From contig JAJYPH010000015.1 of the NCBI GenBank assembly GCA_021795575.1, forward strand, positions 1-34,588: DNA of 34,588 nt, in the 5' to 3' direction. Made by a program: the position numbers and the translations under genes. A model generated the notes under the pieces. That model was not told the DNA's origin and made no database searches. It worked only from the letters and a program-made list of their open reading frames with translations. Source of the DNA: Bacillota bacterium (GTDB lineage: Bacteria > Bacillota > Sulfobacillia > Sulfobacillales > JAIMBI01). This document shows positions 1,721-18,194 of this stretch, in pieces; position 1 is the first letter of the stretch, and every line of letters starts with the position of its first letter.

Positions 1721-2365
1721 TCAGGGCACGAGCCAGCCCAGCTCCTGCGCCCGCCGCACCGCCTGCACCCGGGAGCGCACATCCAGCTTGCTCATGATGT
1801 TGCCCATGTGGTATTCCACGGTGCGCTCGCTGACCAAAAGTGCCCCCGCAATCTCTTTGTTGGCCAGCCCCTCCGCCACTTTGCCCAGCACCTCCAGCTC
1901 ACGGGCCGTGAGCCTTGGGCTGTCCCGCCGAGACCACGCCCGCACGGCGGCCAAGTTGTTGCCCGGCAGGACATGGGCGCCCAGAGTGGCCGCCCGCACC
2001 GTGGCCAACAGCTCCTCGCTGGCGCACCCCTTGTCCAGATAGGCGGTCACGCCCACGTCCAGGAGGCGCAGTCGGTACTGTGGCGCCGTGTGCGCGGTCA
2101 GCACCACTATAGCGGTCTGGGGATGCCGGGCGGCCATCCGCTCGGCGGCCTCCACGCCGTTCTGGTCCGGCAACCCCAAGTCCAGCAGCACGACGTCCAC
2201 GCCATCGTCGGCACCCTTGGCTTCCTCGCTATCGGCCAGCGCACGGAACGCGGCCGCCGCCGTGCCTGCCTCCCCCACCACGCGGATATCGGCCTCGCGC
2301 TCCAAGAGACTCCGAGTCCCCTCCCGCACCAGGGTGTGGTCATCCACCAGCAGCACGCGAATCAT
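1721..2365 (-). CDS. NarL/LuxR-family response regulator
   Basis: MIRVLLVDDHTLVREG receiver, LLDLGLP phospho-site context, C-terminal LTARELEVLGKVAEGLANKEIAGALLVSERTVEYHMGNIMSKL LuxR HTH. Confidence 0.93.
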   Translation of the reverse strand: MIRVLLVDDHTLVREGTRSLLEREADIRVVGEAGTAAAAFRALADSEEAKGADDGVDVVLLDLGLPDQNGVEAAERMAARHPQTAIVVLTAHTAPQYRLRLLDVGVTAYLDKGCASEELLATVRAATLGAHVLPGNNLAAVRAWSRRDSPRLTARELEVLGKVAEGLANKEIAGALLVSERTVEYHMGNIMSKLDVRSRVQAVRRAQELGWLVP

Positions 2366-4424
2366 CGGCCATGCCTCCCCTCTCAGGCGCCGCCCCCTGG
2401 CCATGCTGCGGGCCGGCTGGGCTCGGCTCCGGCACGACCAGGGTTACCGTGGTGCCGGCCCCCGCTGCCGTGGCAATCTGGAGCGTCCCGCCCAGCATGG
2501 CGGCCCGCTCGTACATGCTGGCCACTCCCAGGTGGCCGGAAGCCACCCAGCGGCTCGGGCGGCTGGGCATGAGGAACCCCTGGCCGTCATCGTGGACCGC
2601 CACGACCACCAGAGAGTCCTGGCTCGCCAGCCGAATGTGGATGTGGCGGGCGCGCCCGTGGCGCAGTGCATTGTGCAGCGCCTCCTGAGCTACCCGGAAA
2701 AGCCCCTCGCGCACGGACTCGGGCAGCGGCGGCAGTGCATCCGCCTCCAGCTCCACCACTGGGCCATTAGCGCCCAGCACCCGAGACAGCCGCTCGATGT
2801 AGGTTCTGAGTGCCTCAGCCGGGCCTAAGTCATCCAGCAGCGCCGGGTGAAGGCTCGCCGCCAGCTGGCGCAGCTCCTCGGCGGTGTCCAGCGCCGCCTG
2901 GCGGAGCCGATCGGCGGCCACCGGCACCTCGGCCCCGCGCGCCATGGCCAAGACCGACTGCAGCGGCCCGTCGTGCACCTCGCGGGCGAGGCGGCGGCGC
3001 TCCGCCTCTTGGGCTTCCACCAAGCGGCGGGCCAACAGCTGCATCTCCTCCTGCTGCGCCCGCGCGGTGTCCAACTTCTGCGCCAGGTCGGCTCGAAGCG
3101 CGGCGGCCTCCATGGCGACGCCCAGCACGCCGGCCACCGCCGCCACCAGCTGTCGGTCGGTGGCTCTCAGGTCTCCGTGGCGGAGCTTTTCCGCCGCCAG
3201 CAGGTAGCCCGCCACCGGCTGCCCCTCCACGCCGAAAGGGACCAGCAGCCAGTCGGGGTTCGCTCCATCCCGCTCCGTTGGCCGATGGCGATCCAAGCTG
3301 CCCAATCCCGCCAGCAGGCGGCGGCCACCGCTTGCATCCTGCTGGATGGCGGCGGCGCCGCGCACGCCCAGGGCCGCCGCCACCTGGCTCACGGCGAACG
3401 CCGCCATTTCACGGGGGTCTCCGCGGGCTCCAATGCCGCCGCTCAGCTGGGCCATCACGGCGGCATAGTCGAAGTCATCGCGAAACACCACCCGGTCCAC
3501 GGCCCGGCGCAGCATCACCCAGGCCGGCGCCAGCGCCGCCGTCGCCGCCAGCAGCAGGGCAATCGGCACTGCGGCCACGCCCCCCCGCGACGCCAGCGGC
3601 ACCAGTGTGGCCAGCACCGCGCCGTAAAGGATGGCAGCCGTCGCGGCCGACACCAGGTACAGCAGGCGGCGCAGGCTGACCCCAATGCGGACGCCCATAA
3701 ACCGGCCCCACAAGACCGCCACCAGCGCGTACACGGGCATCACCGCAATTTCCACCGACAGCGTCCAGGCCGGCACGCCGATCCCCAGCCGCTCGGCGGT
3801 CACCGTGAGGGCGGGCGGCACCAGGCCCAGGACCGAACCCAAGAGCAGGATTCCAAGGTGCGGAGCACCGGCCACCCGGGTCCCCTGGCGGCGCCCGCGA
3901 GCGACCGCCGCCAGCCCCACCCCCACCGTGGTGAGATACCAGGCGGCGATGAGATTCGACATGACTGGGGCGGCGATCCACGGCATCCCCGCCACCAGCA
4001 GAGCGGCACCCGCAAACCACACCCACGTCTTCCATTTCCATGGCGGAGCGGGGGCGCCGCGCGTCCACTCTTGGCAGAACGCCACATACGTGGCCCCCAA
4101 TAGGGCCGTCGCCACGGTCGCCAAGCCTTCGGCCTGGGGAAATCCCAGGCTCGCGAGCGGCAGGGCCACGGCCTCCACCATCCCCAGCCCGTTCAGCCCG
4201 AGGCAGTATCGGGCCACCTGCTCCGACGTGGCGGCCGCAATCCCCGCGCCCGCCGCGACCAGCACCACCAGCGTGCCGCCCATGCCCATCCAGGTGCCCG
4301 CCGGAAGCACCGCGGCATGCCCGGTGAGCATGGGGACGGCGGCCGCCAGCAGCAGCGCGGCCGCCGCGAAAGCCGCGCCGAGGCCCCACCGCTGGAGCGG
4401 CCACCTTCGCGCCAAGACGACCAC
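2340..4424 (-). CDS. Membrane sensor histidine kinase (HisKA_3 type)
   Basis: Multiple N-terminal hydrophobic segments, GAF-like middle, LAREVHDGPLQSVLAMARG H-box, HDDGQGFLMP ATPase motifs; overlaps the response-regulator start. Confidence 0.92.
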   Translation of the reverse strand: MVVLARRWPLQRWGLGAAFAAAALLLAAAVPMLTGHAAVLPAGTWMGMGGTLVVLVAAGAGIAAATSEQVARYCLGLNGLGMVEAVALPLASLGFPQAEGLATVATALLGATYVAFCQEWTRGAPAPPWKWKTWVWFAGAALLVAGMPWIAAPVMSNLIAAWYLTTVGVGLAAVARGRRQGTRVAGAPHLGILLLGSVLGLVPPALTVTAERLGIGVPAWTLSVEIAVMPVYALVAVLWGRFMGVRIGVSLRRLLYLVSAATAAILYGAVLATLVPLASRGGVAAVPIALLLAATAALAPAWVMLRRAVDRVVFRDDFDYAAVMAQLSGGIGARGDPREMAAFAVSQVAAALGVRGAAAIQQDASGGRRLLAGLGSLDRHRPTERDGANPDWLLVPFGVEGQPVAGYLLAAEKLRHGDLRATDRQLVAAVAGVLGVAMEAAALRADLAQKLDTARAQQEEMQLLARRLVEAQEAERRRLAREVHDGPLQSVLAMARGAEVPVAADRLRQAALDTAEELRQLAASLHPALLDDLGPAEALRTYIERLSRVLGANGPVVELEADALPPLPESVREGLFRVAQEALHNALRHGRARHIHIRLASQDSLVVVAVHDDGQGFLMPSRPSRWVASGHLGVASMYERAAMLGGTLQIATAAGAGTTVTLVVPEPSPAGPQHGQGAAPERGGMADDSRAAGG

Positions 4425-4564
4425 CTCCGCTTGCCGCCGCTGCCGCCCGCCTTGCTCGGCATACTTCTCCAGCCGGCGGAATTACCCTCTCTGTACCACG
4501 TTATACCACCCCTTCCACCCAGGGAGCCGAGGGGAACCCGCCGATGAGCATCATCTCACCCGCC

Positions 4565-5305
4565 TTAGGCCAGCAGCTCTAAGCCACCGTCCACGACCAG
4601 CGTTTGGCCCCGGATCATGAGGGATGCCGGGCCGGCCAAAAATGCCACGGCATCAGCCACGTCCTCCACGGTTACCAGCCGCCCGGCCGGGACACGGCGA
4701 GCCGTCTCTCGCCGCAGGGCCCGTCCTTCGGGATGGGAGTCCAGCGCCGAGGTGGCAAGCACCCCGGACCGAACCGCGTTCACCCGCACACCCTGCGCCG
4801 CCAGCTCGGCGGCCAAGCAGCGCGTGAGGTGCTCCAGTGCCGCCTTGGCGACGCCAATCGCGCCATAGTGCGGCACCGTCCGCACGGCCCCCGTGCTAGA
4901 CACATTCACGACCGCGCCCCCCGCCAGCAGCGGCGCGAGCCGCGTGGTGAGCAGCCAGGGGCCCTTGAGGCACGTGTCCAGCGTCAGGTCCCAGTGGCGC
5001 ACCGAGAGCGCCGTCAAGTCGCGAAACGCGCCCAGTGCAGCACTGTTCACCAGCACCCGCACCGGCACCCCGCCTGACAGGAGCGGCCCAATGATGGCCG
5101 CATTGAGAGCGGAAGGATCTCTGGCATCCGCCTGCACGACCGTGACCTTTCCCGCGCAGGCGCCGAGCGCGGCTTGCGCTTCGTGAGCGGCTTCGTGATT
5201 CAGCAGGTACGTCAGCACCAAGTGGACATCCGGAGCGGCCAGCCGGCGGGCCACGGCCAAGCCTAAGCCGCGCGTCCCGCCGGTGACTAGGACGACGCCG
5301 GTCAC
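4565..5305 (-). CDS. SDR protein resembling FabL-type enoyl-ACP reductase
   Basis: VTGGTRGLG cofactor motif; Y-x6-K (YGAIGVAK) rather than YxxxK; C-terminus TPAGR-like RVPAGRLVTVEDVADAVAFLAGPASLMIRGQTLVVDGG resembles FabL. Start (GTG) is approximate. Confidence 0.7.
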   Translation of the reverse strand: MTGVVLVTGGTRGLGLAVARRLAAPDVHLVLTYLLNHEAAHEAQAALGACAGKVTVVQADARDPSALNAAIIGPLLSGGVPVRVLVNSAALGAFRDLTALSVRHWDLTLDTCLKGPWLLTTRLAPLLAGGAVVNVSSTGAVRTVPHYGAIGVAKAALEHLTRCLAAELAAQGVRVNAVRSGVLATSALDSHPEGRALRRETARRVPAGRLVTVEDVADAVAFLAGPASLMIRGQTLVVDGGLELLA

Positions 5306-6504
5306 AGCGCGCCACGCCTTGCTGCTGGCAGCAGCAGCGCGTCCAGCCGGCACCGCCGCCGTGCGGGCAGAGTGGGGTCCACGGACAGGGCGGCCGACGC
5401 CACTCGGCGGGCCTCCTCCGGCCGGCCGGCCTTTTCCAAGGCTTCAGCGAGCCCAGCCAGAATCCGCGACGACGTGGGGGCCAGGCTCGCCGCCAGCCGA
5501 TGAAGGGCCAGTGCCTCCTCTGGACGTGCCCACCGCCCCGGCCGATGCTCCAGCCACACCGCGCACGCGTGCCAAGCCACGGCGTCCGTGGGGCGCGCCT
5601 GGGCCCCCCGGCGGAGCCAGCGGCCGGTCTCCAGAAACATAAGCCCTTGCGGGAGTCCCCCACCTTTACCGAGCGCACGCTGCCCGAGCCACCGCCCCCA
5701 CTCCACCGACAGCGATGCGTCCTCGCGGAGCGCCGCCCACAGCGGCCGAATCCAAGCATCCCGCTCGCCCAGTCCGTGTGCGGCGGCGTGCTCCGTACAC
5801 GCCGCCAGCCTTTCGGCGGCGGGCGACAGCGGGGGCCGGCCCCACGCGAAGCGGTCCCGCACCGCCGAGTCGACGGATTCGGCCGGCCACTGCCCGGTGA
5901 GGGCGGCGACCTGCTGAAACAGGCCGCGCACCCACACGCGCCCGGCGGAGCGGCCAACCGCTGGCGGAGGGAGGGGCGCCCCCACCCGCAGCATGGCCCG
6001 CCGGCCGCGCCGGGGCCAGCGCCCGCCGACGGGCAGCACTTCCTTGGTCCCCAGCAGCCCCACGGGGATGGTGGGCACCTGGGCGGCGGCGGCCAGACTG
6101 GCGGCGCCCGTGCGGAAGGCTGCCAGGTCTCCCGACCGACTGCGCGTCCCTTCGGGGTACACCACCACAATGCCGCCCTCCGCCAGAGACTGCCGAGCTA
6201 CCGACCAGGCGTCGGTGTCGACCGCCCCCCGGCTGATGGGAATCCCGCCAAACGCCCGATGCAGCCGCCCCGCCACGGGGCGGCGAAACTGCTCCGCCTT
6301 CGAAAGGAAGCGCAGGGCAGGCCAGCCCTGTCGGCCCGCCCACCAGATGAGGAGGGCATGGTCGAAGAAGCTCAGGTGGTTGGCCGCCACCATGAACGGC
6401 GGGGGCGGCAAGGGGCTGGACGCGTCCACCACCGCCAGCACCCGCCGCCCCACGCTCCGGCCGAGCCACCGGGCCGCGGGCCGACTCAGCACTCCCGCGC
6501 TCAT
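5302..6504 (-). CDS. PlsC-like 1-acylglycerol-3-phosphate acyltransferase with TPR-like C-terminal extension
   Basis: NHLSFFD (HX4D) and VYPEGTRSRSG motifs; C-terminal helical repeats (EEALALHRLAASLAPTSSRILAGLAEALEKAGRPEEARRVASAAL). Confidence 0.85.
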   Translation of the reverse strand: MSAGVLSRPAARWLGRSVGRRVLAVVDASSPLPPPPFMVAANHLSFFDHALLIWWAGRQGWPALRFLSKAEQFRRPVAGRLHRAFGGIPISRGAVDTDAWSVARQSLAEGGIVVVYPEGTRSRSGDLAAFRTGAASLAAAAQVPTIPVGLLGTKEVLPVGGRWPRRGRRAMLRVGAPLPPPAVGRSAGRVWVRGLFQQVAALTGQWPAESVDSAVRDRFAWGRPPLSPAAERLAACTEHAAAHGLGERDAWIRPLWAALREDASLSVEWGRWLGQRALGKGGGLPQGLMFLETGRWLRRGAQARPTDAVAWHACAVWLEHRPGRWARPEEALALHRLAASLAPTSSRILAGLAEALEKAGRPEEARRVASAALSVDPTLPARRRCRLDALLLPAARRGAL

Positions 6505-7166
6505 CGCTCCATCCCCCGGCGCACCTGCGCCACGTCTTCGACAGACAGGATGGGCACGGCCCAGCGGCGGGCGCGCGAGGCCAGCAGGCGGCCCCACACG
6601 GCGCGGCCCTGGCGGTCCAGCACTTCCACGATGATGGCCACGGGAGCAAGGCCAGCCAGGCGCATGAGGTCCGTGGACGCCTCGGTGTGCCCGCGGCGCA
6701 CCAGGACGCCTCCCTGCCGCGCGGCGAGGGGAAACAGATGCCCCGGACTCCGCAGGTCTTCGCGGCGAGTTCCCGGATAGGCCAGCAGCCGGGCGGTCAC
6801 GGTGCGGTCGTGGGCAGAAATGCCTGTGGTGACCCCAAATCGGCCGTGGGCATCCACACTCACGGTGAATGCTGTCTCATGCGGGTCCGTGGAATGGGCC
6901 ACCATGGGAGTTAGGCCGAGCCGCGCCGTCCAGGCTGGATCCATGGCGACGCATATCAGTCCGCCTCCATGCCAAATGAGGAAGTTCATCTGCTCCACGG
7001 TGGCCAGCTCCGCCGACAGCACCAGGTCGGCCTCTCCCTCCCGGTCCGCATCGTCCGCAACCAGCACCGGCTCCCCGCGGCGCAGCGCGGCGGCCGCCCG
7101 GGCCACGCGCACCGAGGCCGGCGCCTCCTCCCGCGGAACCTCAAGGGTCAGTGTGACGCTTGCCAT
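6501..7166 (-). CDS. ribB: 3,4-dihydroxy-2-butanone-4-phosphate synthase homologue (RibB-like)
   Basis: VADDADREGEADLVLSAE, GGGLICVAMDPAWTARLGLTPM, FTVSVDA, FGVTTGISAHDR, SPGHLFPL, RRGHTEASTDLMRLAGL; AAGGAGG RBS at 7173-7180. Confidence 0.9.
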   Translation of the reverse strand: MASVTLTLEVPREEAPASVRVARAAAALRRGEPVLVADDADREGEADLVLSAELATVEQMNFLIWHGGGLICVAMDPAWTARLGLTPMVAHSTDPHETAFTVSVDAHGRFGVTTGISAHDRTVTARLLAYPGTRREDLRSPGHLFPLAARQGGVLVRRGHTEASTDLMRLAGLAPVAIIVEVLDRQGRAVWGRLLASRARRWAVPILSVEDVAQVRRGMER

Positions 7167-7181
7167 CTTCGTTCCCTCCTT

Positions 7182-7245
7182 CAGATGATTCCAGATGCTT
7201 CCGGATGTCTTTCGGATGTTCTCCAGGTGTTTTCCTGTGTGTTCC
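7182..7245. repeat. Tandem imperfect 10-11 bp repeat array upstream of the ribB-like gene
   Basis: Six units: CAGATGATTC / CAGATGCTTC / CGGATGTCTTT / CGGATGTTCTC / CAGGTGTTTTC / CTGTGTGTTCC. Confidence 0.75.
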
Positions 7246-7355
7246 CACTGCTCTTGAGTTTTCGCCTCTCGGTTCGTGCTGCTTGGGCTCCCGGGCTCTC
7301 CCGGCGCTGCCCGCCGATGCAGACTCTCCGCATCCGCCTTGCAGCGAGAGGCACG

Positions 7356-7739
7356 TCACTGCGGCGCCGCCGGCGGCGATGCCACCGCCACCGCTACCAC
7401 CATGCCTGCGTCATGCGTCAGCGCGACGGCCAGCTCGCGGCCGCCCAGCCAAGTGCGCGCCAAGGCGCCGCGCACGGACACCCGCGGCGCCCCCCATTCA
7501 TCCACGGCAATCTCGATGTCGCGCCAGCTGACACGGGTTCCGCATCCCAGCGCCTTCAGCACCGCCTCCTTCATGGCCATGCGCCCCGCGACAAAGCGCG
7601 CGCGCCCTCCCAGGGACTCTGGAGCCTGCCGCCCCTCGGCCTCCGTCAGCAGCTCCTTCACCACCGCGTCGCCCCATTTGGCCAGCAGCCGCGCGATGCG
7701 GGCCTCGGGCACCAGATCCACCCCCACGCCGGGCATCAT
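7356..7739 (-). CDS. acpS: Holo-[acyl-carrier-protein] synthase
   Basis: GVGVDLVPEARI, RFVAGRMAMKEAVLKALGCG, LAVALTHDAGMVVAVAVA motifs. Confidence 0.9.
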   Translation of the reverse strand: MMPGVGVDLVPEARIARLLAKWGDAVVKELLTEAEGRQAPESLGGRARFVAGRMAMKEAVLKALGCGTRVSWRDIEIAVDEWGAPRVSVRGALARTWLGGRELAVALTHDAGMVVAVAVASPPAAPQ

Positions 7740-8626
7740 GGCGCGTCCCCCTCGCACACGAACTCCTGCTCATTGAACAGGTCCTCGGAAAATCCGAGCG
7801 CCACCACCGACTCCAGATAGCTGACGAGGGCGGCCACTCCGCGATCCCGGTGCTTAGCCGCCAGGTACCTGAAGTTGGGCAGCCCCCGGCGAAATTTCTC
7901 CGCGCTGGATCGCGAGTGCTCCAGGTGGCAGTTCACGGCGTCGGGCGCATCGGCCAGCCGCCAGCCGCGCTGCTCGGCCCGGTAGCCCAGGTCGGTATCC
8001 TCGCCCCCCCATCCGGTGCCAAAGCGCTCGTCGAAGCCTCCGAGGGCTCCAAAGACGCCGGCGCTGACCGACAGGTTCGATGTGCAGGTGTGGGCAAACC
8101 GGTAGGCGTGGTGCACAGGCAGTGCCAGCGCCCGGCGGGCGCGCGCTTCCCCCACGGTCATGCGCGCCTTCCCCCACAGCCGATCCAGCGCCGCCGGGGT
8201 GACGGGCTCCGCCAGCCACGCGGGCACTTCATCCACGGGGATGGCCCAGCGGCGCCCGCGATACAGCCAGCCCGGATCCGCCTGAAGCCGCCGCACATGA
8301 GCCGCGATGAATCCCCGCTGGGGGACCATGTCGTCATCGCTGAACACGAACCACGAGCCGCGCGCTTGGGCCGCCGCCTGATTGCGCGCGGCCGCCGCCC
8401 CGCGGTGCGTGCCGCGCACGACCTGCAAGGGAAATGGCAGCCGGCACGACGCGAGCCAGGCGCCTGTTCCATCCGTGGACCCGTCATCGGTGACCACTAC
8501 TTCGAAGGGAAATCCCTGCGGAGTCAGGGCAAACGCCTCCAACACCGCACGCAGCCGATCCCGCTTGTTGTAGGTCGGCATGACGACAGAGGCTAGGGGC
8601 CGCCTGGGCCGCGCCCCCGCGGTCAT
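7736..8626 (-). CDS. Family 2 glycosyltransferase
   Basis: SVVMPTYNKRDRLRAVLEAF, VVVTDDGSTDGT, FVFSDDDMVP, GGFDERFGTGWGGEDTDLGYR. Confidence 0.92.
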   Translation of the reverse strand: MTAGARPRRPLASVVMPTYNKRDRLRAVLEAFALTPQGFPFEVVVTDDGSTDGTGAWLASCRLPFPLQVVRGTHRGAAAARNQAAAQARGSWFVFSDDDMVPQRGFIAAHVRRLQADPGWLYRGRRWAIPVDEVPAWLAEPVTPAALDRLWGKARMTVGEARARRALALPVHHAYRFAHTCTSNLSVSAGVFGALGGFDERFGTGWGGEDTDLGYRAEQRGWRLADAPDAVNCHLEHSRSSAEKFRRGLPNFRYLAAKHRDRGVAALVSYLESVVALGFSEDLFNEQEFVCEGDAP

Positions 8627-9378
8627 GCCGTGAGCCCCCCATCCACGACGATAGTGGTGCCGTTGATGTATGAGGCAGCCGGGCTGGCGAGGAAGCGGAC
8701 GACCGCGGCCACCTCGCGGGGATGTGCAAAACGCCCGAGGGGGATGTCCGCCAAGTACTGCCGCCGCACCTCAGCCGGCAGGCCGGCCACCAGCTCCGTT
8801 TCGATGAATCCCGGCGCCACCGCGTTGGCGCGCACGCCCGTGCCTGCGAGCTCACGCGCCAGCGAGCGGGTCAGCGACACCAGCGCCGCCTTGCTGGCGG
8901 CGTACAGGGCTTGTCCCCGAGCGCTTTTAAGGGCCGCCGCCGACGCGACATTAATGATGTGTCCGCGCCGGCGGAACAGCATGTCGCGCCCCAGGGCCGT
9001 CATGAGCGCCAGGGGCGCGCGCACATTCACGGCTTGGACCGCATCCCACTCGTCCGGCGTCTGCAGGAACAGCAGGCCATCGGCGCTGATGCCCGCATTG
9101 TTCACCAGCACTTCAAACGGACCCGCGCCGCGGGCAACCTGCTCCAGGCGGGCGGCCCACTCCTCGGGGGGTGCTGCCAAGTCCCAGCGCATGGGCACGA
9201 AGCGTGTGTGCGGGCACCGGCGCGCGGCCGCGGCGGCCGCCGCGGCCGCCGCGTCTTCGCGCGTGCGATAGGTGAACACCACGGGGTCGAAGCGGGCGCC
9301 CAGCGCCGCCACCAGCGTTCGCCCCAGTCCCCGCGATCCGCCGGTGACCAGGGCCGCCCCGCTCCGCGGCCCGCTCAT
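8623..9378 (-). CDS. 3-oxoacyl-ACP reductase (FabG-like SDR)
   Basis: ALVTGGSRGLGRTL, NNAGIS, YAASKAAL catalytic motif, NGTTIVVDGGL; ATGA overlap with the downstream GT2 gene. Confidence 0.9.
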   Translation of the reverse strand: MSGPRSGAALVTGGSRGLGRTLVAALGARFDPVVFTYRTREDAAAAAAAAAARRCPHTRFVPMRWDLAAPPEEWAARLEQVARGAGPFEVLVNNAGISADGLLFLQTPDEWDAVQAVNVRAPLALMTALGRDMLFRRRGHIINVASAAALKSARGQALYAASKAALVSLTRSLARELAGTGVRANAVAPGFIETELVAGLPAEVRRQYLADIPLGRFAHPREVAAVVRFLASPAASYINGTTIVVDGGLTA

Positions 9379-9665
9379 ACGGCCTGCTCGCCGCGCCGCT
9401 CCACGCACAGGTCATAGAGCGCGCCCAGCGTCTGAAAGGCACCGGTATCCTTCTGCGTGATGCGTATGCGGTGCAGCTTCTGCAGGGCGACGGCCAGCTC
9501 AAGGCAGTCCACCGAGTCCAGCCCCAAGCCGTCCTCGCCCATGAGCCGCGTCTCGCGGCCCAGCGCCTGGCTGTCCATATCCAGTTCGAGATGCGTCACC
9601 ACCAGCTCCGCTAAATCTGCCAGCGTGAGCCCGGGCGCGCCGTCGGTCTTCAGCACGGTTGCCAT
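9375..9665 (-). CDS. Acyl carrier protein
   Basis: Small acidic protein with DGLGLDSVDCLELAVALQ phosphopantetheine site; AAGGAGG RBS; ATGA overlap with the FabG-like gene. Confidence 0.88.
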   Translation of the reverse strand: MATVLKTDGAPGLTLADLAELVVTHLELDMDSQALGRETRLMGEDGLGLDSVDCLELAVALQKLHRIRITQKDTGAFQTLGALYDLCVERRGEQAV

Positions 9666-9699
9666 CGTGGCCATCCTCCTTCGATTGTTCGGCTTCGCT

Positions 9700-9717
9700 G
9701 CCGCCAAGCTTGGCGGC
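9700..9717. promoter_or_regulatory. 18-bp perfect palindrome in the divergent control region
   Basis: GCCGCCAAGCTTGGCGGC, about 35 bp upstream of the ACP start codon. Confidence 0.6.
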
Positions 9718-9767
9718 CGTTCGCGTGGAAAGTGCCGTCGCGGAGCGGGCGTACTGCGGCCCACATG

Positions 9768-9782
9768 GCGGAGCGCCTCCGC
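9768..9782. promoter_or_regulatory. Inverted repeat GCGGAG-CGC-CTCCGC
   Basis: Perfect 6-bp arms read directly. Confidence 0.4.
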
Positions 9783-9906
9783 GACCCGGGTCGATGATGC
9801 CGCTCGCGATCCCACGGTCGGATCCGGAGTGGAAGGGAAGTTGTCCCTGCCCACCCCACCGTAAGAGGTCCCGCACACGGGGAGCCTCGGGAAAACCCTA
9901 GGCTAA

Positions 9907-9938
9907 GCCCTGGTATTTTCACCGGGGACCACCAGGGC
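9907..9938. promoter_or_regulatory. Inverted repeat GCCCTGGT-N16-ACCAGGGC
   Basis: Perfect 8-bp arms in the divergent intergenic region. Confidence 0.45.
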
Positions 9939-10113
9939 CCAGCCGCCCACACTGAGGGTCGTTGAGAGGCGATCGGGCGGGCGGCTGGCCCACACGCTCG
10001 GCTCCCACTCTATAGGCAGGCAACACGCGAGACGGGCTGCGGCACAAAGCCCCCGACCCCAAGCGGCATGTGAATGGCCGAGAGGGCAAAACCGCGAAAG
10101 GAAAGGTGACAGG

Positions 10114-11127
10114 ATGGCGATGACAACGAATTCCCGGATGCTGGCCACCGGCTCCGATGGCGCGGGAGGGCTCCGCCAAGCCGCCCCCGCCGGCTCCGCG
10201 CCGGTGGTCGCCGGCCAAAACCTCGGCAAGCGCTATGGAGACCGGTGGGCGGTGCGCCACTTGGACCTCACGCTGTACTCCGGGGAGGTGTTTGGCCTCT
10301 TGGGCCCCAACGGGGCCGGCAAGACGACCACCTTCAATTTGCTGGCGGGGCTTCTGTCCGCCGACGAAGGCGAGCTCACGGTGCTGGGAGAGCCGTGGCA
10401 CCACCCACGCGCTGCGGCGCGCCGCCAGCTGGGGATGGTGCCGCAGCACCTCGCCCTCTACCCGGAGCTGTCCGCCCGCCAGAACGTCCACTTCTTTGGC
10501 CGGCTGTATGGGCTCGCGGGCACCGCCCTGGACCAAGCGGCCATCAGAGCGCTGGACGCGGTGGGGCTGGCCGACCGCCAGCATGACACGGTGGCGGCGT
10601 TCAGCGGCGGGATGAAGCGGCGCCTCAACATCGCCTGCGCGGTGCTGCATCGGCCGCAGATCCTGCTCCTGGATGAGCCGACCGTCGGTGTCGACCCGCA
10701 GTCCCGCAACCTGATTTTCCAGACGCTCCAGCAGCTTGCCGACGACGGCGTGACCATCGTGTACACCACGCACTACATGGAGGAAGCGCAGGCGCTGTGC
10801 GACCGGGTGGCCATCGTGGACGGCGGCCGCGCGGTGGCGGAAGGCACGGTCTCCGAGCTGCTGCGCCAGCACGGCGAAAGCGTGATCCAGGTGACCGTGG
10901 ATCCCCCGCAGGCCGCGTGCCTGGAGCGGGCTCTCGCCGGTGCCGGAGCGGAGGTGACGCTCACCGGTGGGACGCTCGCGATTCGCGCGCGGGATGTGCC
11001 GGAGACGCTCGCGCTTGTCACCCATCACTTGGCGGCGCTCGCCATCCGCCCCACGTCGCTGGATCTGGTGCCGGCCAGCTTGGAAGCCGTTTTCCTCACC
11101 CTCACGGGGCGGCGGCTGCGCGACTGA
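10114..11127 (+). CDS. ABC transporter ATP-binding protein (exporter type)
   Basis: Walker A GPNGAGKTTTFN, signature FSGGMKRRLNIA, Walker B ILLLDEPTVGVDPQSR. Confidence 0.95.
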   Translation: MAMTTNSRMLATGSDGAGGLRQAAPAGSAPVVAGQNLGKRYGDRWAVRHLDLTLYSGEVFGLLGPNGAGKTTTFNLLAGLLSADEGELTVLGEPWHHPRAAARRQLGMVPQHLALYPELSARQNVHFFGRLYGLAGTALDQAAIRALDAVGLADRQHDTVAAFSGGMKRRLNIACAVLHRPQILLLDEPTVGVDPQSRNLIFQTLQQLADDGVTIVYTTHYMEEAQALCDRVAIVDGGRAVAEGTVSELLRQHGESVIQVTVDPPQAACLERALAGAGAEVTLTGGTLAIRARDVPETLALVTHHLAALAIRPTSLDLVPASLEAVFLTLTGRRLRD

Positions 11128-11254
11128 TGGGCTCACCGGCTGTCCGAGCTTTTCGGTGCCGCTGGCGATGGACAGCCCGCCGGAGCCGGGACAGCGGGCC
11201 CGGCGCGATACAGCTCAAGGAGAACGAGAGCCAAAAGAAGGAGGCATCGGCGAA

Positions 11255-12379
11255 ATGTGGCCCATCGCGATGAAAGACTTTTGGATTTACCTGCGCGACC
11301 GCGGGACCATTGTGAACCTGTTTGTCCTGCCCCTGATGTTTGCCGTCGTGCTGACGGCCGCTCTGGGCGGCGTGTTTGGCGGCGGCACTCCCGCTGCCAC
11401 CATGAAGGTGCCGCTGGTGCTGGAGCAGCCGAACCCTGCCGTCACTCAGGCGGTGCAGCGCCTGCCGGGGGTGGTGCTGACCCGCGAAGGCGCCGGGGCG
11501 GCCCGGAGCGCCGTGGCCAGCGGTTCGGCCCTGGCCGCCATCGTGGTGCGCGGCCAGCACGTGATGATTTGGCAAAGTCCCACGGAGCCGGCCACGGCGT
11601 CCCTGTTCCGCGGGGCGGTGGCCTCCGCCATCTCCGCCGGCGTGAGCCGCGCGGACCTTGCGACGCTCATCGCCCGCATCGGCCGGACGTCTGCCGGCCG
11701 CACCCTGGCAGCGGGGCTGTCCCCCATGCCGGCCGTGACGCATCTGGCCGTGGGCGTCACCCGCCAAGCCCCTCACCCCAGCGCGGTGGAGCAGTATGTG
11801 CCGGGCTTTACCGTGGCGTTTCTCTTCTTCATTGCCGCCACCATCGTGCAAAGCTTCTTCAGCGAGCGGGAGCGCGGCACCATGGCCCGCATCCGCGTCG
11901 CCTCGACCAGCCCGCGCGCCATCTTGGCGGGCAAGCTCATCCCCACGTTTGCCATGGGCATCATCCAGGCGGTGGTGATGTTTGCCGCTGGCCACTGGCT
12001 CTTTGGCCTGGCGCTGCCGAACCCCGCCGCGCTGCTGGCCGTGACGGTGGCCATCAGCGTGGCGGCCAACGGGCTGGGCTTGCTGGTCACGTCTTACGCG
12101 CGCACCCAGAGCCAGGCCCAAAACGTGGCGACCCTGCTCGTGTTCCTGCTGGCGGCCGTGGGCGGGTGCTACGTGCCGCGCTTCTACATGCCGCCCATCA
12201 TGCGCTCGCTGGCGCTGGCCACACCCCAGGGCTGGGCCATGCGGGCTTACCAGGCCATTCTGCTGCAGGGGCAAGGCTTGGGCCACGTCTGGCCGAACCT
12301 CGCCGTCCTGATGGGGTTCGGCCTGGTTTTCTTCGTGGTGGCCCTGCTGCGCTTCCGCGTTGACCAGGTGGCCGCGTGA
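11255..12379 (+). CDS. ABC-2 type transporter permease
   Basis: MWPIAMKDFWIYLRDRGTIVNLFVLPLMFAVVL, FSERERGTMARIRVASTSPRAILAGKLIP, C-terminal TM segments; follows the ATPase gene. Confidence 0.9.
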   Translation: MWPIAMKDFWIYLRDRGTIVNLFVLPLMFAVVLTAALGGVFGGGTPAATMKVPLVLEQPNPAVTQAVQRLPGVVLTREGAGAARSAVASGSALAAIVVRGQHVMIWQSPTEPATASLFRGAVASAISAGVSRADLATLIARIGRTSAGRTLAAGLSPMPAVTHLAVGVTRQAPHPSAVEQYVPGFTVAFLFFIAATIVQSFFSERERGTMARIRVASTSPRAILAGKLIPTFAMGIIQAVVMFAAGHWLFGLALPNPAALLAVTVAISVAANGLGLLVTSYARTQSQAQNVATLLVFLLAAVGGCYVPRFYMPPIMRSLALATPQGWAMRAYQAILLQGQGLGHVWPNLAVLMGFGLVFFVVALLRFRVDQVAA

Positions 12380-12843
12380 GCGCCATAGGGGAAGGGACGG
12401 CGGCTGCCGCGCACGCGGTCGAGCCGGTGCGCGTGGACGCCTACCTGCCACACCGCGGGGCGCTCTTGCTGGTGGATCGCGTGCGCCGGATGGGGCCGCC
12501 GCTGGCGGCCGCGGAGCTTGATGTCCCGATCGGCCACTGGGCCGTGGCCGGGCACTTTCCCGGCGTCCCCATTTTCCCCGGCGTCCTGCTGCTGGAGTTC
12601 ATGGCACAGACCGGGCGGTTTCTCTTTCCCGAGCCCGGAACCGCACCGGCCCTCTTGGTTCGCGTGCGCCATGCTCGCTTTCTGGCGCCGGTGCATCCGC
12701 CGGCCCGCCTCGTCGCCATGGCCTCACTGGAGGGCGAGGTGGGGCCGCAGTTCCAAATTCGGTGTGAAGCCGTGGACGAGCACGCTCCACCGGAAGGCCG
12801 AGTGGTGGCCCGCGCCCACTTCACCGTCCTCCGGGCGGGGTGA
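12376..12843 (+). CDS. FabZ-like 3-hydroxyacyl-ACP dehydratase (hotdog fold)
   Basis: LPHRGALLLVDRV and AGHFPGVPIFPGVLLLEFMAQTG; GTGA overlap with the permease stop. Confidence 0.85.
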   Translation: MSAIGEGTAAAAHAVEPVRVDAYLPHRGALLLVDRVRRMGPPLAAAELDVPIGHWAVAGHFPGVPIFPGVLLLEFMAQTGRFLFPEPGTAPALLVRVRHARFLAPVHPPARLVAMASLEGEVGPQFQIRCEAVDEHAPPEGRVVARAHFTVLRAG

Positions 12844-12955
12844 GCGGCGGGACCACCGTGCGGCAGGTGGCCCCCCCGCCCAACCGGCCTCGATTCCCGA
12901 GCCGATTGATGCGATGAGACCCCATGATCCGGGCGGAGATGGCCACACACGAGCT

Positions 12956-12977
12956 GAGGTTAGAGAGAGGTTAGAGA
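12956..12977. repeat. Perfect tandem 11-bp repeat (GAGGTTAGAGA)x2 upstream of the CLF-like gene
   Basis: Two adjacent identical 11-mers, immediately before the AAAGGAG RBS. Confidence 0.85.
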
Positions 12978-12991
12978 AAGGAGCGGTCTAC

Positions 12992-13924
12992 ATGCGTTCC
13001 ACGACCCGCATCGCCCTCACGGGCTTTGGCGCCGTCCACCCCGACGGCATGGGCCCGGTCTCCGGCGCGCTGCGCAGCACCGCCCGACTGGACGATGCCG
13101 AAGAGGTCGTCCCGGGCACCTGGCGCCGCACCGTCGCGCAGCCCATCCTAGACCCATGGCTCCCGCCAGCCGGCCGGCGCCGGCTGGACCACCTGGCCCA
13201 AATGGCCGTGGCGGCCGTGCGCGCGGCACTCGCCGACCGGGGTCCCATCCTGGTGAGCAGCCCTCCAGGCCTGTTTGTGGATACTCTGTTTGGCAGCGCC
13301 ACGGCGGTGGCCCGCCTGATGGCGTCGGCCGGCGACCCCGATGGCGTGGTGTCGCCGCTCCTGTTTCCCGGCGTGGTGGCCAATCAAGCGGCCGGCCAGG
13401 CGGCCGCGGCCGCAGGCCTCACCGGACCCTCGACGGTGTTTGGGGGCCACGGGGCGTTCGAGTACGCATGCCTCCAGCTCATGGCGGGCCGCATCTCCGC
13501 CGCCGTGGTGCTTGGCCTCGACGACATCTCTCCGCTGCTCGCCCGCGTGCTCGCGCGATCCGGGATGCGGCTGGGCGCGCCAGCTCCCGCGCCTCAATTG
13601 CTCACCGAGGCGGCTGCGGCGCTCGTACTGGAGACCGAGGCCCACGCCCAGCTGTGCGGCGCGCACGCACGGGTGTGGGTAGCTCCCGAGTGGCAGGACG
13701 CTCCCTCGGGCGCACACCTGGACTCCCGCGCGTGGGACGCGACTTGGGGATTCAGCGCCGCAGCCTGGCTGCCGCTGGCGGTGGGCACGCTCGCGGCCAG
13801 CGGCATACAGGCGCCGGCCGCGCTCCAGGCGGCCGATCCGCTGCGGCCGGGCGTCACCTGGGTCAGGGTGGCTCCTGCCGGCCGCAGCGCCGCCCGACCT
13901 TCCGCACTGGGGGTGGCCCAGTGA
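12992..13924 (+). CDS. Degenerate ketoacyl synthase homologue (chain-length-factor-like)
   Basis: KS-N-like TRIALTGFGAVHPDGMGPV and LFPGVVANQAAGQAAAAAGLTGPS; active-site Cys replaced (VFGGHGAFEYA); no HGTGT/KS-C His motifs; about 310 aa. Confidence 0.75.
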   Translation: MRSTTRIALTGFGAVHPDGMGPVSGALRSTARLDDAEEVVPGTWRRTVAQPILDPWLPPAGRRRLDHLAQMAVAAVRAALADRGPILVSSPPGLFVDTLFGSATAVARLMASAGDPDGVVSPLLFPGVVANQAAGQAAAAAGLTGPSTVFGGHGAFEYACLQLMAGRISAAVVLGLDDISPLLARVLARSGMRLGAPAPAPQLLTEAAAALVLETEAHAQLCGAHARVWVAPEWQDAPSGAHLDSRAWDATWGFSAAAWLPLAVGTLAASGIQAPAALQAADPLRPGVTWVRVAPAGRSAARPSALGVAQ

Positions 13925-15213
13925 GCGCGCGGACAGCGGTCGCCATCACCGGGCTGGGCGCCGCCACTCCACTCGGTGCCGACGCATCCACCTTCCGGGC
14001 AGGACTGCTGGAGGGGCGGCACGGCTTTGGGCCAGTCAGCCGCTTTGATGCCACCCGCTACGGCGTCAACTGGGCTGGCCAGCTGGACGACGCCGTGTGG
14101 GCGCCCCCTGGCTCCCCGGATGCAGGCTCCCGGCCCGCTCAGCTTCTGGATCGGGTGGCGGCGGAGGCGCTGGCCATGGCCGGCGGGCCGAACGACACGC
14201 GCACGGCGCTGGTGCTTGGCACCACGCTGGGATCCGATGAGCTGTCGCGGGTGGCCTGGCAGGAGCAGCACGGGCACGCACCCGACTATGACACCGTCCT
14301 GTCCGGCATGGCCGACTGTGCGGGCCGGCGGCTGGTGGACCGCCTGGCGCTCGGCGGGCCCGTGTGGAGTGTGGTCACGGCCTGCGCGGCCGGCACCACC
14401 GCCATTGGCGTCGGGGCCGACCTGATTCGCCTGGGTCTCGTGGACCGGGTGCTGGCCGGCGGGGTCGACACGCTTACCGAGCTCATTTATGCCGGGTTTG
14501 ACAGCATGGGGGCGCTCGGGCATGACTGCCGCCCCTTCGCCGAGGACCGGGAGGGCGTCGTGCTGGCCGAGGGCGCCGCCATGATAGTGCTGGAGTCCGA
14601 AGGCCACGCCCGGGGGCGGGGGGCACACATCCAAGCCTGGGTGTTAGGCTGCGGCACCGCCAACGACGCCTACCACGCGACCGCCCCGCACCCCGACGGC
14701 CGCGGCGCGGCATTGGCCATGCAGCGCTGCCTCAGCGACGCGGGGCTCTCCCCCGCCGACATCGACTACGTCAACGCGCACGGCACCGGCACCCACGCCA
14801 ACGATCCCGCGGAGTGGGCGGCCATCGCGGCGGTGCTCGGGAGCCACGCTTGGGAAATTCCTGTTAGCTCGACCAAGAGCCAGATGGGTCACGCCCTGTC
14901 CGCGGCCGGAGCCATCGAGGCGGTGGCCACGGTGCTGGCGCTGCGAGACGGCTTCGTGCCGCCCACCGCGCACCGCCACGCCCCCCTGGCCGCGGCAGTG
15001 GGAGCGGACTTCGTCCAGGACGCCGGGCGCCGGCGGCCGATGGCCTGTGCCCTCAGCAACTCCTTTGCGTTTGGCGGCCACACCGCGTGTCTCGCATTGG
15101 GCCGCGCCGACATCGACTGGAACTCGGAGCGCAGCGGTGGGCATCCAGCGCTCAGATCGCCGTCCCCGGACCCCACGCGCCACCGGGGTGTCCGCGCAGC
15201 ACACTCCCGGTAA
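13921..15213 (+). CDS. Beta-ketoacyl-ACP synthase (FabF-like), intact catalytic triad
   Basis: VVTACAAGTTAIG, NAHGTGTHANDPAE, KSQMGHALSAAGAIEA, SNSFAFGGHTACL; GTGA overlap with the preceding gene. Confidence 0.93.
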   Translation: MSARTAVAITGLGAATPLGADASTFRAGLLEGRHGFGPVSRFDATRYGVNWAGQLDDAVWAPPGSPDAGSRPAQLLDRVAAEALAMAGGPNDTRTALVLGTTLGSDELSRVAWQEQHGHAPDYDTVLSGMADCAGRRLVDRLALGGPVWSVVTACAAGTTAIGVGADLIRLGLVDRVLAGGVDTLTELIYAGFDSMGALGHDCRPFAEDREGVVLAEGAAMIVLESEGHARGRGAHIQAWVLGCGTANDAYHATAPHPDGRGAALAMQRCLSDAGLSPADIDYVNAHGTGTHANDPAEWAAIAAVLGSHAWEIPVSSTKSQMGHALSAAGAIEAVATVLALRDGFVPPTAHRHAPLAAAVGADFVQDAGRRRPMACALSNSFAFGGHTACLALGRADIDWNSERSGGHPALRSPSPDPTRHRGVRAAHSR

Positions 15214-15312
15214 GAAGGGGAGCCATCCATTAGGAGAACACGGACGGCGCCGACGGCAAGCGCGACAAGGACGCCGCGCATGACACAGACGACGAAAGGA
15301 CGGAACATCAAC

Positions 15313-15708
15313 ATGATGAAGGGCAAGCAGATGAACCGCGGTGGGAACCGGCACTGGATGGGAGCGAGGAGCAGGCGGCTGGCCGCCGCCCTCAAGGGGT
15401 TTGGCACGCTGGCGGGAATCGCGCTGTTGGTCGGGCTGGTGGCCAGCGGCCTCATGCCCGCTGCCGAGCGCGTGGTGGCTGTCGCCGCCGCCTGGCCTGC
15501 CGCCACCGCCGCCGAGTTTTCGGTGGGGCGCCGCGTGTCTGCCCGTACGGCCCAGGTGCTGGGCAGCGCGATGGGGGGCCTGTGGCTGGTTGCCGCGATA
15601 GGGCTCTGGTGGGGCTTTGCGTCGGCCAGCGGCATCGCGGCCTTGGGGGCCGGCTTGTGGGTGGCGCTGAGCTTCGTGGTTGACCCCGCCTACGGCATGG
15701 CGGATTGA
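15313..15708 (+). CDS. Small hypothetical membrane protein
   Basis: Two or three hydrophobic segments; co-directional after the KS gene; start uncertain (15280 or 15313). Confidence 0.5.
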   Translation: MMKGKQMNRGGNRHWMGARSRRLAAALKGFGTLAGIALLVGLVASGLMPAAERVVAVAAAWPAATAAEFSVGRRVSARTAQVLGSAMGGLWLVAAIGLWWGFASASGIAALGAGLWVALSFVVDPAYGMAD

Positions 15709-15813: not shown

Positions 15814-16406
15814 TCAGTCATCTGGTTGAGGTGGACTGTCCCGGGGGGCGGGCTCACATTGGCGGGCCAGTCCGGGGCCGCCCAGCGCAGCACGCATGCG
15901 CTGCAAGGCATCACTGGGCCGCGCCACCTCCACGCCCGGGGGAGAGTAGTAGTGCCGCATGTTAATGGTCACCAGCCAGTCGGCTGAGACTGAGGCGGCG
16001 GCCAGGACATGGACGTCTTTGGGGTGCGCGTACTTGGCCCAACGCGCGAGGTTCGATTCGCCCGGGTCAGTTCCTACGGTGAGGCTGTTCGGCCACATCG
16101 CTTCGAAAATCGGCAGTTCGCGCGGCAGCTTGCGGATGAGGTTGCTGCGTACCTCCATCAATACCGCCGGCAATGTCCACGCCTACACCATCCCCAACGC
16201 TCCGACGAGCAACAGGGCATGCGAGGCGCCGCAGTAGGTGTCAAGCCCCCGGGGACAGATCAGCACAGGAAAGTCACGCTCTCTTGTTACGGGGGATCCT
16301 CGGGGGGATTGATCGCCACGCGGTCCGGCAGGGCCGGGGGTTGGGGCGGGCCGCTCGGTGACGCACATCCTGCAATAATCGCGTCGGCGTCCAAAAACAC
16401 CCGGAG
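15814..16406 (-). pseudogene. PIN-domain (VapC-like) toxin pseudogene
   Basis: VFLDADAIIAGCASPSG + ASHALLLVGALGMV * AWTLPAVLMEVRSNL...HPKDVHVLAAASVSADWLVTINMRHY; interrupted by a 122-bp insert (16233-16354) and an in-frame TAG. Confidence 0.78.
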
Positions 16407-16720
16407 TGGGGTTGGCGTAGGTCGTCAGGAGAATTGCCCGAGCGGTCGTCGCCAGGTTTGGTGAAATCGGTGAACCGAGGCGCATCGGCGCCGTAGCGGT
16501 CCTGAGCCCACGCGGACAGGAGATCGTCGACGGATAAATTTTCGGAAGCGCGCTCGGCCGGTAGCTGGCGAGCGAGTTCTGTCACCACCGGAACGCGCGA
16601 GCTGAGTACCAGGAGGCCATCCCAGTCCACCAGCGTCAGTGGGGTATCTGTCGCCAGACCGTACCGATCGCGGACGTCCTTTGGCCGCGCCACGACACCG
16701 CGTTCGCGCACTTGGACCAC
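16274..16720 (-). CDS. AbrB/MazE-like antitoxin, cognate to the PIN pseudogene
   Basis: VQVRERGVVARPKDVRDRYGLATDTPLTLVDWDGLLVLS resembles SpoVT/AbrB antitoxins; the ORF overruns into the PIN gene out of frame, so the true end is uncertain. Confidence 0.6.
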   Translation of the reverse strand: MVQVRERGVVARPKDVRDRYGLATDTPLTLVDWDGLLVLSSRVPVVTELARQLPAERASENLSVDDLLSAWAQDRYGADAPRFTDFTKPGDDRSGNSPDDLRQPHSGCFWTPTRLLQDVRHRAARPNPRPCRTAWRSIPPRIPRNKRA

Positions 16721-16937: not shown

Positions 16938-18194
16938 CTAGTAGATCCATTCCTAGTTGTTGCCATATTGGAGGCATGGAGGTAGGCTGGGGGGGAGTCT
17001 TCGTGGGAGGTGATTCGGATGCCCCATCCCCGCACGATTCCGCCCTTGACCGTCCGTCCCGCCGACCAAACGTACCTCGACCGGTTGGCTCGCTCCCGCA
17101 CGGCCCCCGTCCGCACGGTCACCCGCGCCCGGATCCTCGTCGCGTATGCGGCGGGGGCCAGTTGCCCCGCGATTGCCCGGGACCTCGGCGTGCCGCTCCC
17201 CACGGTGATGCGGTGTGTCAAGAAAGCCTTGGCCCTGGGCCCCCGCCGGGCGCTGGACGACTTGCCCCGCGCCGGCCGGCCGCCCCGCATCACCGCGGAG
17301 GCCCGGGCGTGGATCATCAGGCTCGCCTGCCAAAAGCCCAAGGATCTGGGGTGGGCGCCCGAGTTCTGGACGGAGTCGCTCCTCGCCCGCTACGTGCGTG
17401 AGCACGCGGGTGCGGTGGGTCATCCCAGCGCCGGCCAGATCCAGCAAGGCACCATCTCGAAGTTGCTGGCGGCGCAGGACCTGCACCCGCATCGGGTGCA
17501 GTACTACCTCCAGCGGAAGGCCCCGCACTTTGACGACCAGATGGTGCAGGTCCTGCACGTCTACCAACAGGTGACGTTTGAGGTCGACCCGGCCGATGAC
17601 CGCCGCACGGTGCGCTGGTCCTACGACGAACAGCCGGGGATTCAAGCCCTGCGGGCGATCGCGCCGGACCGCGCCCCGCAGCCCGGGGTGGTGGACCAAG
17701 GGACCTGGGAACGGGAGTACGAGTACCAGCGCCTAGGCACCCGGACCCTGCTCGCGGGCATCGACCTCGCGACGGGCGAGGTCTTGGGGGTGGTCCGCGC
17801 CCGCCACCGGAGCCGGGAGTTCGTGGAGTGGCTGCATGCGCTGGACGCGAAGTACGACGCGCCGGTGAAGATCCAGGTCGTGTTAGACAACCATTCCGCC
17901 CACACGTCGAAGGAGACCCGGGCCTACTTGGCCACCCAGCCCAATCGGTTCGAGTTTGTGTTCACCCCAGTGCACGCCTCCTGGCTGAACCTGATCGAGA
18001 TGTTCTTCGCCAAGCTGGCCAAGCAGTGTTTGCGGGGGATCCGCGTCGATTCCGCGGAGGAACTGGAAACCCGCCTCCAGCAATACATCGACTGGGTGAA
18101 CACGGACCCGGTCCCCTTTCGCTGGAAGTGGCGCTTGGAGTCGGCGGATCCCGCACCGGTCGAACCAGATGTCAGTTAGGAATTGCTCTACTAG
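16938..18194 (+). mobile_element. IS630-family insertion sequence (IS-B)
   Basis: Imperfect TIRs CTAGTAGATCCATTCCTAGTTG (16938-16959) / CAGTTAGGAATTGCTCTACTAG (18173-18194), flanking TA; encloses a transposase. Confidence 0.88.
17010..18179 (+). CDS. IS630-family transposase
   Basis: N-terminal HTH (SCPAIARDLGVPLPTVMRCVKKA), SYDEQPGIQAL, VLDNHSAHTSKETRAYL, FTPVHASWLNLIEMFFAKL; stop codon lies inside the right TIR. Confidence 0.94.
   Translation: MIRMPHPRTIPPLTVRPADQTYLDRLARSRTAPVRTVTRARILVAYAAGASCPAIARDLGVPLPTVMRCVKKALALGPRRALDDLPRAGRPPRITAEARAWIIRLACQKPKDLGWAPEFWTESLLARYVREHAGAVGHPSAGQIQQGTISKLLAAQDLHPHRVQYYLQRKAPHFDDQMVQVLHVYQQVTFEVDPADDRRTVRWSYDEQPGIQALRAIAPDRAPQPGVVDQGTWEREYEYQRLGTRTLLAGIDLATGEVLGVVRARHRSREFVEWLHALDAKYDAPVKIQVVLDNHSAHTSKETRAYLATQPNRFEFVFTPVHASWLNLIEMFFAKLAKQCLRGIRVDSAEELETRLQQYIDWVNTDPVPFRWKWRLESADPAPVEPDVS

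Follow-up and report, generated by a model that had tools for sequence, protein, structure and literature searches.

Aryl-polyene (APE) lipids are known as products of Gram-negative bacteria, which export them to the outer membrane. The APE clusters of E. coli CFT073 and Azospirillum encode a ketosynthase (KS), a half-size chain length factor (CLF), a FabG-type ketoreductase (KR), a FabZ-like dehydratase (DH), a lysophospholipid acyltransferase, and a GT2 glycosyltransferase, together with an acyl carrier protein (ACP) in the E. coli ape cluster; their acyltransferase and GT2 have been proposed to fix the chain onto a lipid anchor (PMC8253772). All these components, with a PlsC-like acyltransferase carrying TPR repeats (PlsC-TPR) and a GT2 as the lipid-anchoring set, were found in a gene cluster of a Bacillota bacterium of the order Sulfobacillales (contig JAJYPH010000015.1; the whole contig of 34,588 nucleotides is referred to as the window). 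With moderate confidence, we propose that this is a transferable cluster for a specialized, envelope-directed lipid. The block suggests a Gram-positive counterpart of the aryl-polyene-type lipids that has its own export route.

Comparison of the window with three described systems revealed the following similarities and differences: (i) the APE clusters have genes for aryl starter supply and activation, a second ACP, ApeR, a thioesterase, and RND/LolA/LolB export, all of which are missing from the window (domain scans detected no starter supply or activation genes within 1721-15708), whereas the window adds an ABC-2 exporter, a FabL-like short-chain dehydrogenase/reductase (SDR), RibB, and the TPR repeats of the acyltransferase; (ii) the highly reducing type II polyketide synthases (PKSs) of the ishigamide Iga11-Iga12 type, to which we infer the Streptomyces references used here to belong, resemble the window in the grouping of KS and in the presence of KR, DH, and ACP, but the window has a Bacillota host and includes a lipid-type acyltransferase, GT2, and an ABC exporter; and (iii) the Nod factor system (NodE/NodF/NodA/NodC/NodIJ) likewise combines a specialized KS and ACP with an acyltransferase, GT2, and an exporter ATPase, and the window ATPase scores well against NodI models, but the Nod KS belongs to another clade, the window lacks a deacetylase and has the PlsC fold instead of NodA, and the likeness is one of analogy only.

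By analogy, the cluster appears to work like an APE cluster, but it is not classed as one, as the defining features are missing. A reading of the DNA from its sequence alone (the sequence-only reading) had proposed an APE-like core in an undescribed cluster type. The shared core is borne out, as are the lack of a FabL-like reductase and RibB in the E. coli APE cluster and the distinct export by an ABC-2 system instead of RND/Lol. Rather than a new category, however, the cluster is better described as the Gram-positive form of a known kind, that of the highly reducing type II PKSs and aryl-polyene lipids. The literature on Sulfobacillus polyketides and glycolipids yielded nothing relevant.

Gene content and proposed pathway

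The cluster consists of approximately 15 genes in two divergent operons, at 4565-9665 on the minus strand and 10114-15708 on the plus strand, divided by an intergenic region (9666-10113). Motifs were called on the protein sequences and domains with Pfam and NCBIfam (TIGR, NF) models. The chain-building enzymes include the KS (13921-15213, plus; PF00109 and PF02801), whose triad is intact with C in TACAAG, H in AHGTGT, and H in STKSQMGH, and a CLF of 310 aa (12992-13924, plus; PF00109 at 4.5e-6), in which the active-site Cys is replaced (GGHG) and the C-terminal thiolase half is missing. The CLF of APE clusters is also approximately half the size of KS (PMC8358021). The FabZ-like DH (12376-12843, plus; PF07977 at 1e-12 and FabZ models) retains the FabZ-type H and E residues, and the FabG-type KR, termed here SDR2 (8623-9378, minus; TIGR01830 at 2.5e-63), carries YxxxK. 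The ACP (9375-9665, minus) has a DSV site; Pfam gave no match for it at an E cut-off of 0.001, but carrier-protein models of NCBIfam did (NF006617 at 5e-10), and it also matches PDB entry 9ls6. The AcpS-type holo-ACP synthase (7356-7739, minus; PF01648/TIGR00516) has the KEA motif. The second reductase, SDR1 (4565-5305, minus), has a YX6K motif, and its top solved structure is the enoyl-ACP reductase FabL (3oic, E 1e-41); its score of 195 bits is below the curated FabL cut-off of 328. Thus, the enoyl-reductase role of SDR1 is putative.

The remaining genes point to acylation, glycosylation, and export. PlsC-TPR (5302-6504, minus; PF01553) has HX4D and EGTR motifs and the TPR repeats at its C-terminus. 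RibB (6501-7166, minus; PF00926 at 4e-69) is a monofunctional member of the 3,4-dihydroxy-2-butanone 4-phosphate (DHBP) synthase family that scores 232 bits, exceeds the TIGR00506 cut-off, and has the family motifs, with REGEAD replacing RENEGD in the acidic loop. GT2 (7736-8626, minus; PF00535 and Glyco_transf_7C) carries DDGS, DDD, and ED. The exporter comprises an ATPase (10114-11127, plus; PF00005, TIGR01188) with Walker A, signature, and DEPT motifs, which scores best against DrrA and NodI models, and an ABC-2 permease (11255-12379, plus; PF12698/PF01061). The plus-strand operon ends with a gene (15313-15708) for a small hydrophobic protein that is probably located in the membrane and has no match in Pfam.

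Several gene starts were revised: ACP to 9665 (ATG after AAGGAGG), KR to 9378, PlsC to 6504, SDR1 to 5305 (a GTG overlapping the plsC stop), and the ABC permease to 11255 (after AAGGAGG). Seven adjacent gene pairs share 4-bp stop/start overlaps, four of them ATGA (ACP/KR, KR/GT2, GT2/AcpS, and RibB/PlsC) and three GTGA (PlsC/SDR1, ABC permease/DH, and CLF/KS), which argues for translational coupling of the neighboring genes. The divergent operons with such joins and the functions named in the sequence-only reading (ACP, KR, DH, FabL-like SDR, KS, CLF, AcpS, PlsC, GT2, ABC exporter, and RibB) were thus recovered with their domains and intact motifs. The claim of a near-complete pathway holds only if FabD and the starter are drawn from primary metabolism, as domain scans of the block revealed no malonyl transferase, KAS III, AMP ligase, or thioesterase.

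The cluster probably extends leftward to two genes on the same strand (1721-4424), a NarL/LuxR-type response regulator (1721-2404; PF00072 and PF00196) and a sensor histidine kinase (2340-4424; HisKA_3/HATPase), since both are kept with the cluster in G002, a genome of a different species of the genus (for the kinase, 98% nucleotide identity and dN/dS 0.14).

In a tree of 32 KSs, which contains few references and long branches, the window KS groups with three Streptomyces KSs adjoining short CLFs (support 96/93). Placement inside the FabF clade was rejected (p-AU 0.003), whereas a single clade also holding ApeO was not (p 0.066). By pairwise comparison, the KS resembles FabF at 40-44%. Together with the GTGA overlap that joins the KS gene to that of the Cys-less CLF, the placement in the tree gives moderate support to reading KS and CLF as a pair like that of the highly reducing type II PKSs. 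KR and DH are present as in the highly reducing type II PKSs, but the same cluster also holds the FabL-like SDR1. An enoyl reductase gene beside such a KS-CLF pair has precedent: fabV and fabI are found near KS and a short CLF in two Streptomyces plasmids.

From these genes, we infer the order of reactions, the degree of reduction, the acceptor, the glycosylation, and the transport substrate as follows. AcpS would arm the cluster ACP, and KS-CLF would extend an acyl chain, probably on a starter from primary metabolism, with malonyl units that the housekeeping FabD provides. Each keto group would be processed by KR and DH, and SDR1 could saturate some or all of the double bonds, so that the chain may remain a polyene or become an acyl that is reduced in part or throughout. 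PlsC-TPR would then move the chain from ACP onto a polar acceptor; RibB would work with PlsC, most simply by supplying this acceptor. GT2 may glycosylate the acceptor or the acyl-acceptor, the product would be exported by the ABC-2 transporter, and the cluster may be under the control of the adjoining histidine kinase and NarL regulator. The pathway logic, a specialized chain combined with an acyltransferase, GT2, and an exporter, would be similar to that of APE lipids or Nod factors.

Several points weigh against this reconstruction. The pairwise score of the KS is highest with FabF structures, and the KS entry 6kxd scores lower. The alignment of the CLF with short CLFs covers the same core but is weak (hhalign probabilities of 14% and 48%), and its AlphaFold model (pLDDT 33) is unusable. 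Both GT2 and the exporter proteins are members of large families, and sequence alone does not reveal their substrates. The APE hallmarks (second ACP, ApeR-type KS, starter ligase, and thioesterase) are missing. Finally, dN/dS between the window and G002 reaches 0.57 for DH and 0.70 for ACP, values derived from very few changes.

One alternative, which we consider possible but unlikely, is a dedicated saturated fatty-acid system that runs full cycles of type II fatty acid synthesis (FAS II) and makes chains of defined length for a common glycerol-based membrane glycolipid, with no polyene. It would agree with the complete set of KR, DH, and enoyl reductase, with the YX6K motif and the FabL structure match of SDR1, and with the pairwise nearness of KS to FabF; however, the tree places the KS outside the FabF clade, SDR1 falls short of the FabL cut-off and its enoyl-reductase activity is putative, and known FAS II systems do not use a CLF.

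Genomic copies, conservation, and apparent transfer

The window is the entire contig C3 of its genome (G000; 3.68 Mb, 305 contigs). A separate FAS II operon on contig C262 contains, by our reading of its open reading frames, fapR, plsX, fabH, fabD, fabG, and fabF, followed by rnc, smc, and ftsY. Elsewhere G000 also encodes RibBA, a further AcpS, and a further YX6K SDR, all common to the genus; thus, RibB, AcpS, and the YX6K SDR of the cluster are extra copies. The sequence-only reading, which had taken the cluster for a dedicated second system, is upheld. That the cluster is the housekeeping FAS II was rejected, given the operon on C262 and the absence of the cluster from the congeneric genomes G001 and G003. 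A search for FabK revealed a strong match in G002 alone.

G002 holds the whole block over two contig ends, with window positions 1496-8436 on C4 and 7923-16941 on C116. The cluster genes are 96-99% identical between G000 and G002 (97% nucleotide identity for the small hydrophobic protein), and none of the aligned genes contains an indel. Their dN/dS values are mostly 0.06-0.35, and the genes are thus under purifying selection. Other loci, including core ones, are 72-85% identical between the two genomes. The genome G001 is nearer to G000 than G002 is, and its fabF region is 91% identical to that of G000, yet the block is missing from it. The CLF was not found in the 152 other genomes of the class (154 were searched, including G000 and G002), apart from weak matches to type II PKS-like loci in G522 and G524. 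In 399 genomes of the phylum, the KS search gave FabF-level matches alone, with at most 44% identity among the matches listed; a scan of genome contigs had the G002 contig as the sole orthologous find, and KS and CLF searches of plasmids revealed no close relative. The joint occurrence of ribB, the fabL-like gene, CLF, and GT2, which the sequence-only reading would have taken as support if conserved across genomes, was seen in G000 and G002 and in those two alone.

That the block is nearly the same in two species whose genomes have otherwise diverged suggests that it spreads as a unit. As the block is far more similar than other loci and the closer G001 lacks it, the simplest reading is that it was probably transferred recently between the two species. 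The right boundary is marked by an IS630-like element outside the pathway (16940-18190, plus; DDE_3 transposase at 17010-18179), which has terminal repeats and is inserted in CTAG; collinearity with G002 breaks at 16941, and the backbone beyond the element (dnaJ-like gene, UDG, and pepP) is 91% identical to G001.

The same data could also arise if the left half of the window, up to the insertion sequence (IS) at 16940, were misassembled DNA of a G002-like strain. We consider such a chimera rather unlikely; it would bear on the location and host of the cluster, which would be real in another host, and not on the mechanism. It would account for the contrast in identity between the cluster and the core loci, for a junction lying exactly at a multi-copy IS, and for a right flank close to G001, itself without the cluster. 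However, the copy most similar (99%) to a repeat at 16233-16350, for which G002 has an empty site, lies at another place in G000, which ties the left half to G000, and an IS of the left-flank family beside the block in G002 differs in position and orientation.

The IS630-like elements flanking the block in the window, at 338-1498 and 16940-18190, are different from each other, and terminal inverted repeats of 24 nt bound the left one. The repeat at 16233-16350 is a dispersed element of approximately 118 bp that resembles miniature inverted-repeat transposable elements, with a strong hairpin and an apparent CCGC duplication. It has 12 matches in G000, occurs also in G001-G003, and was not found in two genomes from another genus of the family. 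Beside the cluster, the minus strand at 15814-16720 encodes, as judged by eye, a toxin of the PIN type with an AbrB-like antitoxin. In the window, the repeat splits the PIN gene, which is intact (162 aa) in G002.

The ribB-plsC pair

DHBP synthases of the RibB family convert ribulose 5-phosphate to DHBP, a riboflavin precursor. Full-length relatives of PlsC-TPR beyond G000 and G002 were found by the class search only in G009 and G024, two distant genomes of the same order as the window and both from one family, at 32-34% identity; a profile search of 399 phylum genomes revealed no more PlsC relatives with the C-terminal part. In G009 and G024, the gene belongs to a cassette tetR-ribB-plsC(TPR)-MMPL-SDR-cyclase-like (L125 8751-15342; L126 8468-14969, the latter in G024; for the SDR and cyclase-like protein, the Pfam search covered those of G009 only), and plsC is immediately preceded by a monofunctional ribB. 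The cassette shares with the window the position of ribB immediately before plsC(TPR), the presence of an SDR, and a membrane protein from a family of lipid exporters, but the latter is MMPL instead of ABC-2, and the regulator is TetR instead of a two-component system. No relatives of KS, CLF, or ACP were detected in 20 kb around the cassettes. A PIN/AbrB-like gene pair similar to that of the window lies approximately 2 kb upstream of the G024 cassette (L126 5628-6367).

Thus, ribB and plsC(TPR) remain adjacent while the surrounding genes change. The cluster RibB is 46-48% identical to the RibBs of the cassettes and 45-51% identical to RibBA, and is not decisively closer to either; the common descent of the pair is therefore argued from the arrangement and PlsC, not from the RibB sequence. 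With the block intact in G002 and the pair kept in two distant genomes, the refuting outcome named by the sequence-only reading, an arrangement conserved in no relative, did not occur. These comparisons show ribB-plsC(TPR) to be a conserved adjacent pair, which links RibB to lipid acylation. On the strength of adjacency in two independent settings, RibB may serve the acyltransferase, perhaps as the source of its acceptor. This odd pairing suggests that DHBP, a precursor of riboflavin, has an unsuspected connection with lipid acylation. The literature on RibB in natural-product or lipid clusters yielded nothing relevant.

A more specific scheme, which we regard as doubtful, is a lipid with a C4 backbone, in which the hydroxyl of DHBP from RibB would be acylated by PlsC-TPR in place of glycerol phosphate, the ketone would be reduced by an SDR, and the lipid would then be glycosylated and exported. 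The synthesis of acyl-dihydroxyacetone phosphate and its subsequent reduction provide a parallel. RibB, PlsC-TPR, and SDR would then form an undescribed lipid module, with DHBP replacing glycerol 3-phosphate, the chain coming from KS-CLF, and export by ABC-2, a proposal to which we also give a low probability. The scheme draws on the same gene order in different surroundings despite the divergence of PlsC (about 31-33% identity), on the finding that, among the genomes searched in the class and phylum, just four contain full-length PlsC-TPR, on an SDR that follows in both settings, and on a second, monofunctional RibB besides the housekeeping RibBA. Set against it are the REGEAD loop of the window RibB, the different SDR types (YX6K in the window, YxxxK in the G009/G024 setting), and the probable origin of the G009 and G024 cassettes in one ancestral event, which leaves two independent settings; moreover, we know of no acyl-DHBP lipid.

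Related type II loci

In favor of the proposal of a specialized, envelope-directed lipid, a type II PKS-like locus of the same class in G522 (L076 5018-15118) encodes KS, ACP, KR, CLF, DH, GT2, an ABC-2 type exporter, and a PIG-L-type deacetylase together; a type II synthase with GT2 and ABC export is thus not exclusive to the window. An APE cluster proper, with an APE lipid as its product, is very improbable: the shared KS/CLF/KR/DH/ACP/GT2/acyltransferase set and the joint clade with ApeO would fit, but the block contains no AMP ligase, ammonia lyase, methyltransferase, second ACP, ApeR, thioesterase, RND, or LolA-like gene.

The G522 locus also encodes a KAS III-like protein, a thioesterase, and BtrH/DarH-like proteins. 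The locus in G524 (L077 88-4412) includes ACP, a FabZ-like DH, and a GcvT-like protein, and its KS and CLF are fused into one protein of 782 aa; similar KS-CLF fusions are also present in Streptomyces plasmids (L058 and L083).

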